Shown: one piece after another, positions 46,473-50,069 of the stretch
How the letters are laid out: every line of letters starts with the position of its first letter
Numbering within the stretch: the first letter of the stretch is position 1
Assembly (NCBI RefSeq): GCF_005519465.1
Contig: NZ_CP027858.1
Coordinates: forward strand, 1,364,001-1,428,000
Length of the DNA: 64,000 nt
From: Streptomyces clavuligerus
GTDB lineage: Bacteria; Actinomycetota; Actinomycetes; Streptomycetales; Streptomycetaceae
Direction of reading: 5' to 3'
Position numbers and translations under genes: made by a program
Notes under the pieces: model-generated
Databases searched by the model: none
What the model was told of the DNA's origin: nothing
The model's input: the letters and a program-made list of their open reading frames with translations, nothing else

Positions 46473-47369
46473 ATGGGTTTTGAAGCGCCCCGGCGTCTGG
46501 TGCGGGCGCTCGGTGAGGACGGCGGCCGGGAGGGTCTGCGCGACTGGCTCGACCGGCTGCCCGCCATCGCCGAGGAGACGGTGGCCCGGCTCGGTCTCGA
46601 CGCCGAACGGGTGGTGGCCCCCGGCGGACGCGGCAGTCTGATCGTCCTGGTCCGGCTCGGCGACGGCACCCCGGCGGCGCTGAAGCTGATCCCGCCGGGC
46701 GGCGCCGCCGCGCAGGAGCGGGCGGCACTGGCCCACTGGGACGGCCGCTTCGCGGTACGCCTGCTCGACGCGCCCGAGGCGCCCGCCGCCGGGGACGCGC
46801 TGCTCCTGGAGCGGCTGCACCCGGAGGTCTCCCTGCGTTCGCTGCCCGAGGCGAAGGCCCTTCTGGAGGCGGCGGCGACCGTACGGCGGCTGTGGGTGCC
46901 GCCCCCGGCCGGGCATCCCTTCGAGACCGTCGCGGACCGGACCGCCCGGCAGGCCCTCGCGCTGCGCGCCCTGGACGACCCGCTGGCGACGGCAGCCCTC
47001 GACGCCCGGGCGCGGCTGACCGAGGACGCCCCCGAGGCTCTGCTGCTCCACGGTTCCTTCCGCCAGGGCAAGGTGCTGGCCGCCGACCGGGTCCCCTGGC
47101 TCACGGTCGGTCCCCGGCCCGTCGTCGGCGAGCGCGCCTACGACCTCGCCCGGCTGGTCCGCGACCGCGCGGAGGATCTGGTGGCCGCCTCGTCGGGGCC
47201 CTCGGCGGCCCGTCGCCGGGTGAACAGGCTCGCGGACTCCTTGGAGATCGACCCGGCCCGGCTGCGCGGCTGGGCGCTGTTCCGGGCGGTCGAGTCGGGC
47301 ACGCGGGCCCTCGCCGCGGGCCGCGTCCGGGAGGCGGAGTCCTCGCTGGAGTTCGCCTCCTGGCTCTGA
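46473..47369 (+). CDS. Aminoglycoside-kinase-like protein, probable pseudokinase
   Basis: 298 residues of the aminoglycoside/hydroxyurea kinase (APH(6)) family. The ATP-binding lysine K71 (ALKLIPPGG) and E82 are kept. The catalytic loop, normally HGDxxxxN, reads H193-G-S-F-R-Q-G-K200, and the metal-binding D of the IDPKP-type motif is replaced: LTVGPRPVVGERAYDL (V212-G-P). With catalytic Asp, Asn and metal Asp all gone, phosphotransfer is unlikely. The frame is intact, so the fold is maintained, perhaps as a binding or sensor protein. ATG 46473 has only a weak, distant binding site; the 250 bp before it are locally AT-rich and may carry a promoter. A strong terminator follows. Confidence 0.85.
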   Translation: MGFEAPRRLVRALGEDGGREGLRDWLDRLPAIAEETVARLGLDAERVVAPGGRGSLIVLVRLGDGTPAALKLIPPGGAAAQERAALAHWDGRFAVRLLDAPEAPAAGDALLLERLHPEVSLRSLPEAKALLEAAATVRRLWVPPPAGHPFETVADRTARQALALRALDDPLATAALDARARLTEDAPEALLLHGSFRQGKVLAADRVPWLTVGPRPVVGERAYDLARLVRDRAEDLVAASSGPSAARRRVNRLADSLEIDPARLRGWALFRAVESGTRALAAGRVREAESSLEFASWL

Positions 47370-47455: not shown

Positions 47456-47497
47456 AGCGCCCCCGCCCCCGGCTCGTTCGCCGGGGGCGGGGGCGCT
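47456..47497 (+). terminator. Very strong hairpin after the kinase-like gene
   Basis: Perfect 18-bp arms (47456-47473 and 47480-47497) with a 6-nt TCGTTC loop, 87 bp past the stop. Confidence 0.88.
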
Positions 47498-47559
47498 CTG
47501 TGTGCGTCGCCGGGGCTGAGCCATCGCCCTCACCCCCGGGCGGGTGAGCCCCCGCCCCG

Positions 47560-48285
47560 TGCCTCCGCCCTGCGGGCGAGTGAGCCGAAGGGGCGCACCT
47601 CCGCCTCTCCGCGGGGCTGGACGATGGCCCCGCACCCCGTGCGCGCGTGGACGATCACCCCGCCCCGGGACGGTTCCCCCGGGGCGGGTGGGCCGAAGGG
47701 GCACGCGGCCGCCGAAAGCGGATCACGCGCCCCCGTCCCCGCACGGGCGTTTACCTCAGCCCTGCGGCGCGTGGGCCGTGGGGGTGCGTGGCCGCCGGGA
47801 GCGGAGAGCGGGCCCCTGTCTCCTTGGCCAGGCGTTTACCTCGACCCCGCGGCGAGTGAGCCGCAGGGGCGCCGCGGGTGCCGAAAGCGGAGAGCGGGCC
47901 CCCGTCTCCTGGGCTGGACGTCTGCCTCCGCCCCGGGGCGGGTGGGCCGAAGGGCGCGCGGCTACCGAAAGCGGAGCACACGCCCCCCGTCCCTGCACAG
48001 GCGTTTGCCTTCGCCCCTTGGGCCGGGCGTTTGCCTTGACCCTGCGGCGAGTGAGCCGAAGGGGCACGTGGCTGCCGAAAGCGGAGAGCGCGCCCCCGCC
48101 CCTTGGGGTGGACGTCTGCCTCCGCCCCGCAGCGGGTGAGCCGCAGGGGCGCGCGGCCGCCGGGAACGGAGAGCGGGCCCCTGTCCCTTGGGCCGGGCGT
48201 TTGCCTCGGCCCTGCGGCGGGTGAGCCGAAGGGGTGCCGCGGGTGCCGAAAGTGGAGAGCGCGCGCAGGCCGTGAGGAACGAGCG
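47560..48285. repeat. Tandem array of ~85-bp palindromic units
   Basis: Eight degenerate units between two convergent genes. Unit cores of the form CCCYGCGGC-GRGTGA-GCCGMAGGGG start near 47568, 47677, 47760, 47845, 47931, 48040, 48125 and 48210; spacings are mostly 83-87 bp, with one 109-bp unit carrying a 23-bp partial duplication. Each core is a hairpin; between cores lie conserved blocks GCCGAAAGCGGAGAGCG and GGGCGTTTGCCT. Copies 3 and 7 and copies 4 and 8 match best, each 365 bp apart, so a four-unit block was duplicated. The period is not a multiple of three and no strand has consistent coding use, so long open frames across it are artefacts. Confidence 0.85.
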
Positions 48286-48368
48286 GCCGAGCACGGTCGA
48301 CCGTCGGCGCACGCTTCAGCACCCCGGAGGCGAACCGAGCCACAAAAAAGGGGGAGCCACAGAAGAAT

Positions 48369-50069
48369 TCAGACGCCGCGCAGCCGGGCGACCGCCTCGG
48401 CGACGGGCAGTTCCTCGCGCTCTCCGGTGCGGCGGTCCTTCAGTTCGACGACGCCCTCGGCGGAGCGCCGTCCGGCCACGAGGATCGTCGGCACGCCGAT
48501 CAGCTCGGCGTCGGTGAACTTGACGCCGGGCGAGACGCCGGGGCGCTCGTCGACCAGGACCCGCAGTCCGGCGGCGGCGAGTTGGTCGGCGACCTCCAGC
48601 GCGAGTTCGATCTGGACGGCCTTGCCCGCGGCGACGACATGGACGTCGGCGGGGGCGATCTCGGCGGGCCAGCACAGCCCCTTCTCGTCGGCGGTCTGCT
48701 CGGCGAGGGCGGCCACGGCACGGGAGACACCGATGCCGTACGAGCCCATCGTCACCCGGGTGGGCTTGCCGTTCTGGCCGAGGACGTCGAGCTGGAAGGC
48801 GTCCGCGTACTTCCGGCCGAGCTGGAAGATGTGGCCGATCTCGATGGCGCGGTCCAGCTTGAGGCCGGTACCGCACTTCGGGCAGGGGTCGCCGTCCTCG
48901 ACGACCACGACGTCCACGTATGCGTCGATCTCGAAGTCACGGCCCGCGACGACATGGCGGGCGTGCTTGCCCTCCTCGTTGGCGCCGGTGATCCAGGAGG
49001 TTCCGGCGGCGATCCGGGGGTCGGCGAGGTAGCGGACCTTGTCCAGGCCCTGCGGGCCGACATAGCCGCGGACCAGGTCGGGGCGGCCGGTGAAGTCCTC
49101 GGCGGTGACCAGTTCCACCTGGGCGGGGGCCAGATGGTCGGCCAGCTTGCCGAGGTCCACCTCGCGGTCGCCCGGCACACCCACGGCGACGATCTCCCCG
49201 TCGACCTTCACCAGAAGGTTCTTGAGGGTGGCGGACGCGGGGACGCCCAGGTGCTCGGCGAGGGTCTCGATGGTGGGCGTGTCCGGGGTGTCCAGCAGTT
49301 CCACGGCGGGGTGGTCCACGGCCTCGGGGGCGGCGGCGACGTAGGTCACGGCCTCCGTGTTGGCCGCGTAGTCGCAGGACGGGCAGTGGACGAAGGTGTC
49401 CTCACCGGCGGCGGCGGGGGCGAGGAACTCCTCGGAGGCCGAGCCGCCCATCGCGCCGGAGACCGCCGAGACGATCCGGTGGTCGAGGCCGAGCCGCCGG
49501 AAGATCCGGATGTATGCCTCGCGGTGCAGCGCGTAGGACTCGGCCAGTCCCTCGTCCGTGGTGTCGAAGGAGTAGGAGTCCTTCATCTGGAACTCACGGC
49601 CGCGCAGGATGCCCGAGCGGGGGCGCGCCTCGTCGCGGTACTTCGTCTGGATCTGGTAGAGGATCACCGGCAGGTCCTTGTAGGACGAGCACTGGTCCTT
49701 CACCAGCTGGGTGAAGATCTCCTCGTGGGTGGGGCCGAGCAGGTATTCGGCCCCCTTGCGGTCCTTGAGCCGGAACAGTTCGGCGCCGTACTCGTCCCAG
49801 CGGCCGGTGATCTCGTACGGCTCCTTGGGGAGGAGGGCCGGGAGCAGGACCTCCTGCGCGCCGATCGCGTCCATCTCCTCGCGGACCACACGGGTGACGT
49901 TCTCCAGCACCTTCTTGCCGAGCGGCAGCCAGGACCAGATACCGGCCGCGTTGCGCCGCACATATCCGGCGCGGACCAGCAGCTTGTGGCTCAGCGTCTC
50001 GGCGTCCGCGGGGTCGTCGCGCAAGGTCTTGACCATGAGGCGGGACATGCGCTGGACCTGGGCTGCCAT
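48369..50069 (-). CDS. proS: Prolyl-tRNA synthetase
   Basis: Class II synthetase charging tRNA-Pro, 566 residues, bacterial type with the INS editing insert (about 225-400; [37 protein letters not shown]). Class II motifs are present (motif 2 region [25 protein letters not shown]; motif 3 near [15 protein letters not shown]), and an anticodon-binding domain closes the protein. ATG 50069 follows AGGAG. Its 3' side faces the repeat array, with a TTTTTT run at 48344-48349 on the minus strand just after the stop. Confidence 0.97.

Follow-up and report, generated by a model that had tools for sequence, protein, structure and literature searches.

The described systems closest to the repeat reported here are ERIC and BOX. 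ERIC is an imperfect palindrome of ~127 bp, and REP sequences, a further point of comparison, measure 20–40 nt. ERIC copies are intergenic and dispersed, their number varies between related genomes, and a copy placed at a gene's 3′ end has an effect on transcript levels (PMC10969869). In one orientation ERIC triggers cleavage of the transcript (PMC3049150), and it does likewise behind Yersinia genes (PMC10969869); the word Streptomyces does not occur in the main text of PMC10969869. BOX of Streptococcus pneumoniae is composite, with a variable number of tandem modules and an RNA stem-loop, and has a predicted effect on co-transcribed genes; together with RUP, SPRITE and IS elements, it is over-represented between convergent genes (PMC3049150).

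The repeat that concerns us came to light in Streptomyces clavuligerus, in a window of 64,000 nucleotides (the whole stretch of DNA that was analysed). The best reading is a new, uncatalogued family of a known kind, the small interspersed bacterial repeat, whose array is unusual in being one-sided. In the way it works it would come nearest to ERIC and BOX, being scattered between genes, concentrated behind them and structured if transcribed. With ERIC it shares the form of an imperfect hairpin, here of ~130 nt, and the intergenic, dispersed placement, but ERIC resides in Enterobacteriaceae and Vibrionaceae, whereas the present unit was found in Streptomyces by searches covering Streptomyces and genomes of its class; moreover, we know of no arrays of extra 5′ arms in ERIC. 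The variable tandem modules, the RNA stem-loop and the many sites between convergent genes are reminiscent of BOX. In BOX, however, it is boxB that is repeated inside the element, between boxA and boxC, whereas the Streptomyces repeat stacks single arms outside an intact unit, extra 5′ arms upstream and extra 3′ arms downstream of it, and does not keep its variable modules between two fixed ends. Differing from ERIC in host group and from BOX in module order, it is set apart by these features and is therefore filed under neither. REP sequences and REPINs are likewise dispersed intergenic palindromes, but the Streptomyces unit is far longer, and the RAYT (Y1) transposase gives 0 matches in its own genome and is absent from six of nine genomes with many units (present in three). 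The lack of a Y1 transposase in the own genome rules out a REP/RAYT system, and in this respect the initial annotation was right to call the array unlike REP pairs. No title among the literature matches listed, a set that lies outside subscription papers, describes such a Streptomyces repeat. We assign a probability of about 0.55 to the reading that this is a Streptomyces family of interspersed repeats whose ~130-nt hairpin core is selected as RNA of the plus strand and acts at the 3′ ends of transcripts.

In the window the repeat presents itself as a tandem array between two convergent genes, an APH_6_hur-family kinase gene (under the cut-offs of the NCBIfam APH(6) models) and proS (Table 1), as the initial annotation had stated. 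Its count of eight units also holds: a relaxed motif scan recovers starts at 47576, 47684, 47767, 47852, 47938, 48047, 48132 and 48217, with spacings of 108, 83, 85, 86, 109, 85 and 85, and TRF reports a period of 85/86 bp at 47677–47976 and 48012–48264. The offset of exactly 365 bp between units 3 and 7 and between units 4 and 8 was borne out as well, and 365 is at the same time the best offset of the whole array, with 64% identity overall and 81% in the best 150-bp stretch. The duplication of a four-unit block which this offset had suggested agrees with 365 being the best offset but is a loose one, identity ranging from 43 to 81% over the 150-bp windows printed. A protein-coding array, already denied by the annotation, is ruled out by the one-base indels that separate the copies and by the absence of a Pfam match for the two open frames across it (47544–48224 on the plus and 47756–48343 on the minus strand). 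CRISPR, from which the array had also been distinguished, is ruled out by the stretches between the units, which are themselves repeated and are not unique spacers; the units are 64–81% alike.

Table 1. Features of the array and its surroundings; positions are those of the window.
Feature	Position	Strand	Remarks
Left flanking gene, APH_6_hur family kinase	46473..47369	+	PF04655, E 9.4e-63
G+C-rich, perfect-looking, terminator-like hairpin between kinase gene and array	47456..47497		Read in the sequence
Irregular 5′ stretches, also near other copies	47523..47686	+	Secondary matches, query 24–97 and 130–187
Seven upstream units, ~83–109 bp each	47576..48216	+	Hairpin 5′ arm plus spacer; units 3 and 7, and 4 and 8, spaced by 365 bp
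Conserved unit, ~130-nt imperfect hairpin	48215..48350	+ (sense)	A-run 48344–48349 at end; 24 copies, fold z, covariation
Partial second 3′ module GAGCCACAGAAG	48354..48365	+	Read in the sequence; window copy has a fragment only
Right flanking gene proS, proline--tRNA ligase	48369..50069	-	NF006625, E 2.1e-230

Two other statements of the annotation had to be given up. All units were described as hairpin-forming, yet units 2 to 7 (47684–48215) form no more stable a structure than their dinucleotide shuffles do (z −0.20 on the plus and −0.81 on the minus strand), which means that their hairpins are what any such G+C-rich sequence yields; the last unit alone surpasses its shuffles, with z −4.43 on the plus strand and −2.45 on the minus strand. 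The limits drawn for the array, 47560..48285, miss the main part, as the last unit extends to 48350 and is followed by a partial 3′ module to ~48365, while irregular 5′ stretches begin at ~47523. The suggestions of a structured RNA or of a mobile palindromic element fit the last unit and do not fit the array. The array is an appendage and the element proper is the last unit only; what was described as the array amounts to the ragged upstream margin of a single copy of a dispersed ~130-nt Streptomyces repeat. A hairpin repeat surrounded by tandem copies of one of its arms by itself explains the puzzling ‘palindromic array’.

A DNA search finds 24 full copies of the last 131 bp in the genome, and a covariance model, whose match at the present locus (G000:C1:1412215-1412345) corresponds to 48215–48345 of the window, also finds 24. 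When the whole region is used as the query, 47 matches are obtained, and the 24 strongest places nearly all share the right-hand end. All of the full copies lie on C1 (6.75 Mb). Under an even spread, the probability of finding none on C2 (1.8 Mb) is ~0.0035; the whole-region query has a single 34-base match there. Mean column identity of the unit over the 24 copies is 91%, and the flanks differ between copies. An artefact of assembly or of local slippage is ruled out by these 24 copies and by the presence of the unit in many species.

The copies share a modular plan, in which each 85-bp unit of the array consists of the 5′ arm of the hairpin (~50 nt) and a ~35-nt spacer resembling the spacer before the intact unit. 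Across the loci of this genome there are one to seven upstream 5′ arms, the intact unit's own counted, with at least one extra arm in 18 of 24 (the 5′-arm profile recovers seven of the eight units of the window). By profile, the 3′ half is single in 17 copies and double in seven, and no inverted 3′ half was found among them; two inverted 5′ arms listed for one copy (L012) belong to its neighbour (L007). Genome G082 has a similar plan with a spacer of its own, extra 5′ arms accompanying six and extra 3′ arms five of the 17 loci fetched out of its 18. In G034 and G378 it is the whole unit, instead of single arms, that is repeated in tandem. On the simplest reading, the composition of the units from 5′ arm and spacer and the recurrence of this plan in G082 suggest that the arrays arose by tandem duplication of the DNA directly 5′ of the intact hairpin, and the duplication of the 365-bp block in the window would have come later.

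For the 24 units RNAalifold predicts a single long, imperfect hairpin; it comprises 40 pairs, of which six show double changes, and its apical stem occurs in three forms, GGCC/GGCC, GGTTCC/GGAACC and GCCC/GGGC. A wider alignment of 38 rows, termed A2, comprises 34 of 36 loci from other species (L069 and L070 were excluded as short matches) and four of the 24 own copies; its consensus has 34 pairs, 21 of them changed on both sides. The structure accounts for pairing in 96.6% of cells, compared with 34–38% for slid structures, a comparison tilted in its favour by its derivation from the same alignment on which it was scored. The covariation score is 0.288 against 0.119 ± 0.007 in shuffles, and none of 500 shuffles, which do not preserve the relatedness of the rows, is as high on any of five measures. 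In 38 of 38 units, which are related sequences, the plus strand gives the more stable fold, with a mean gain of 10.4 kcal/mol, and the consensus energies are −63.1 kcal/mol for the plus and −33.6 for the minus strand. In the plus-strand structure we count 47 G:U cells in 18 pair columns versus seven A:C cells in seven, whereas the minus strand's own, weaker alifold structure has 45 G:U cells (eight columns) versus 24 A:C cells (12 columns). G:T pairs are tolerated in DNA hairpins, and of the two arguments for strand preference the predicted difference in energy weighs more than the counts of G:U and A:C. According to these folding models, the sequence of the unit is conserved as a folded RNA hairpin of the plus strand.

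Beyond the genome of origin, a DNA match (E <= 0.001) is present in at least 163 of 392 Streptomyces genomes, own included, a lower bound as two candidates were scored per genome, with some of the matches being weak (E near 1e-3). The covariance model matches in 47 of 121 Streptomyces genomes, again own included, and a sample of the whole class contains 15 genomes with a match among 296, of which 11 are Streptomyces and four belong to two other genera; both of these counts are lower bounds obtained with stricter filters than the DNA count. Profile matches discarded as too short numbered 28 of 156. Matches outside Streptomyces are few and weak (E 2.9e-6 to 3.1e-4). By covariance model, the genomes richest in units are the own genome with 24, G082 and G079 with 18 each, G093 with 10, and G034 and G125 with nine each. 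The unit is therefore not absent from all relatives, absence being what the initial annotation had linked to an artefact, and it matches no family catalogued in Rfam either: the covariance models of Rfam 15 give nothing at E<=5 between 46500 and 50000, and when 19 of the 36 other-species loci were scanned, the sole match falling on a unit was a chance-level one to mir-2320 (L068; 28.5 bits where 90 are needed). Origin from a plasmid or phage was rejected, neither PLSDB nor INPHARED containing a match at E 1e-5. A covarying repeat present in more than one third of the sampled genomes of a genus making many antibiotics, and matching nothing in Rfam, would add an uncatalogued layer to transcript ends, and genomes with 24, 18 and 18 copies offer material for testing how such repeats spread and whether they tune transcript ends.

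The placement of the units relative to genes was derived from gene calls of a crude ORF caller trained on eight genes of the window. Among 95 loci in other species, the left gene runs in the direction of the unit in 70 of the 85 where a left gene was called and opposite to it in 15; 28 loci are convergent, 25 have both genes on the plus strand, nine have both on the minus strand and two are divergent. When one locus is kept per cluster of homologous flanks, co-oriented left genes still outnumber opposite ones by 37 to 10 (37/47, p ~1e-4), and over the 56 clusters the ++ arrangement occurs 17 times versus six for -- (p 0.035); homology between loci is reduced in these numbers by flank clustering alone, and tandem copies account for part of flank cluster 2, which is to that extent an artefact. 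Stop codon and unit are separated by a median of 32 nt. Of the 24 copies in the own genome, 18 have a co-oriented left gene; the arrangement is convergent in 12, ++ in six, -- in three and divergent in three. The co-orientation of the left gene, taken together with the short distance from its stop codon, suggests that in many loci transcription of the upstream gene should extend over the unit. The copy in the window is a poor example of a 3′ untranslated region, given that a terminator-like hairpin precedes the array and that proS faces the unit. At one locus (L009) the left gene, read by eye, runs on into the repeat, and its final residues and stop codon seem to come from there.

Could this placement be that of a terminator, bidirectional or factor-dependent, kept between convergent genes and multiplied by recombination? 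The convergent sites just counted, often tens of bases from a stop codon, speak for it, and terminators that lack a U-tail, which are described for Streptomyces, provide a precedent; we nevertheless regard this explanation as improbable, seeing that copies also sit between co-directed genes (17 of 56 clusters), that the fold of the array is not beyond chance and that the stem is followed by an A-run, not a T-run. Within 110 nt of the unit, a strong hairpin occurs downstream in 29 of 94 loci and upstream in 19 of 94 (8.8 each in shuffles). Near a co-oriented stop codon, such a separate hairpin follows the unit in 36 of 64 cases against 15 of 64 in the gap between stop codon and unit, which also tells against a terminator, although the comparison is unfair to a gap that is often too short. 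An intrinsic terminator, requiring a T-run after the stem on the same strand, is ruled out by the A-run, and the terminator array proposed by the initial annotation is disfavoured on the same ground. At L181 and L187 the unit has, by eye, one arm of an inverted repeat on either side, as though it had entered a terminator hairpin.

For a family of hairpin repeats selected as plus-strand RNA, an effect on transcript 3′ ends would, by analogy, be the most likely function. Copies would enter the DNA between genes, for the most part directly behind a gene, and where the upstream gene is co-directed, a copy would join its 3′ untranslated region and fold there. The double-stranded stem might then keep 3′ exonucleases off or draw in RNase III, and in this way change how stable the 3′ end is or how it is processed. 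Within the own genome, the family would have spread to 24 places, presumably by transposition, and at most of these sites the short spacer and the 5′ arm directly 5′ of the intact unit would have been duplicated in tandem, the array in the window being such a duplicated edge, without a fold of its own.

A structured Streptomyces RNA that adjoins the unit in some places is the Scr2736 sRNA (RF02831), found beside it in three of 19 loci scanned (L066, L110 and L120). It is a separate neighbouring sequence and not the unit itself. By sequence, the flank of this type extends to a cluster of 13 loci, 10 more beyond the scanned three, and its sharing by several species suggests a seemingly old and conserved position of the unit.

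At corresponding loci of relatives the unit is absent. None of 50 such loci carries it (29 proS-end loci, L073–L101, and 21 kinase loci, L128–L148), not all of which keep both neighbours (the right-hand gene is a different one in L131 and L137); the kinase gene and proS also face each other in S. jumonjinensis (L129) and S. inusitatus (L128), without the unit. In G349 the unit separates two genes whose stop and start codons overlap in the 21 relatives shown (L150–L170), and the remaining 29 loci of this search are also devoid of it. The insertion has GAGGA-GTCGCTGACATGAG on its left, which recurs on the right as GAGGAGGTCGCTGGCATGAG, a near-duplicate of ~20 bp. G364 carries the unit at the place corresponding to that of G349, with a similar pair of flanks. 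A scan for target duplications over the 95 loci yielded one convincing direct repeat, that of the G349 insertion (L111), while the top score (L183) is a tandem copy; scores >=18 were reached at 13 loci versus 4.8 expected from re-paired flanks, an excess which shared flank composition may explain. Beside the repeat, the right-hand genes of copies L001 and L013 have their final 19 bases in common (CTGCGCGGCGTCTGAATTC on the gene strand; window 48354–48387), which may reflect a shared target or a copied flank.

What could have dispersed the repeat? It is possible, though we think it rather unlikely, that the unit is a MITE, a DNA transposon that is non-autonomous and depends on a transposase acting in trans, by which its ends are recognised. 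In that case the hairpin would be a by-product or a need of the transposition of DNA, possibly single-stranded, and the sites behind genes would be tolerated insertions. Dispersal with high copy numbers in several genomes and the near-duplicate at the G349 insertion are compatible with such an origin, and the location between convergent genes would also suit a parasite, as has been argued for BOX (PMC3049150). An inverted copy of the 3′ end at the left edge of some units likewise points this way; a pattern search detects it in two of the 24 own copies, exactly in L005 and with two mismatches in L021, and it can be made out by eye in L009, L127, L256 and L261, but most own copies lack it. The own genome, besides being without a Y1 transposase, contains no gene-bearing element with the ends of the repeat, matches with 0–1 mismatch being either copies or three PKS-like stretches. 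Neither the Y1 searches nor this end-sequence search for a gene-bearing partner identified a mobilising enzyme, and the conservation of both arms together with the strand preference exceeds the needs of a DDE transposon. Near-matches to the repeat end within a common DNA context are shared by six stretches at G000:C1 6676794-6729807; these stretches at 6.68–6.73 Mb we take, from one translation, to be ketosynthase code of polyketide synthases in a modular cluster near the chromosome end.

The 3′ A-run and the fold that favours one strand as RNA bring to mind another route, SINE-like retroposition, which we consider the most far-fetched of the alternatives. A hairpin RNA from a host 3′ untranslated region would serve a resident reverse transcriptase as template, and the copy would be inserted together with an A-run and a target duplication of ~20 bp, such as the one seen in G349; the single-arm arrays would arise on the side when copying is aborted or repeated. 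Genomes with the unit have a reverse transcriptase more often than the others (26 of 47 versus 22 of 74, Fisher p 0.007), and the own genome has two RVT_1 matches, but the association ignores genome size and kinship and assumes that both 121-genome samples are identical. Against retroposition, RVT_1 has no match in G034, G141 and G032, which carry nine, seven and six units; one clear duplication in 95 loci is little for this route, and the A-run could be ordinary conserved sequence.

At three loci (L112, L116 and L202) the unit is joined on its 5′ side to another, G-rich sequence, GGCCGGGGGCACCTCCCAGCGGTAGCTGGGGG, which looks like a second dispersed repeat.
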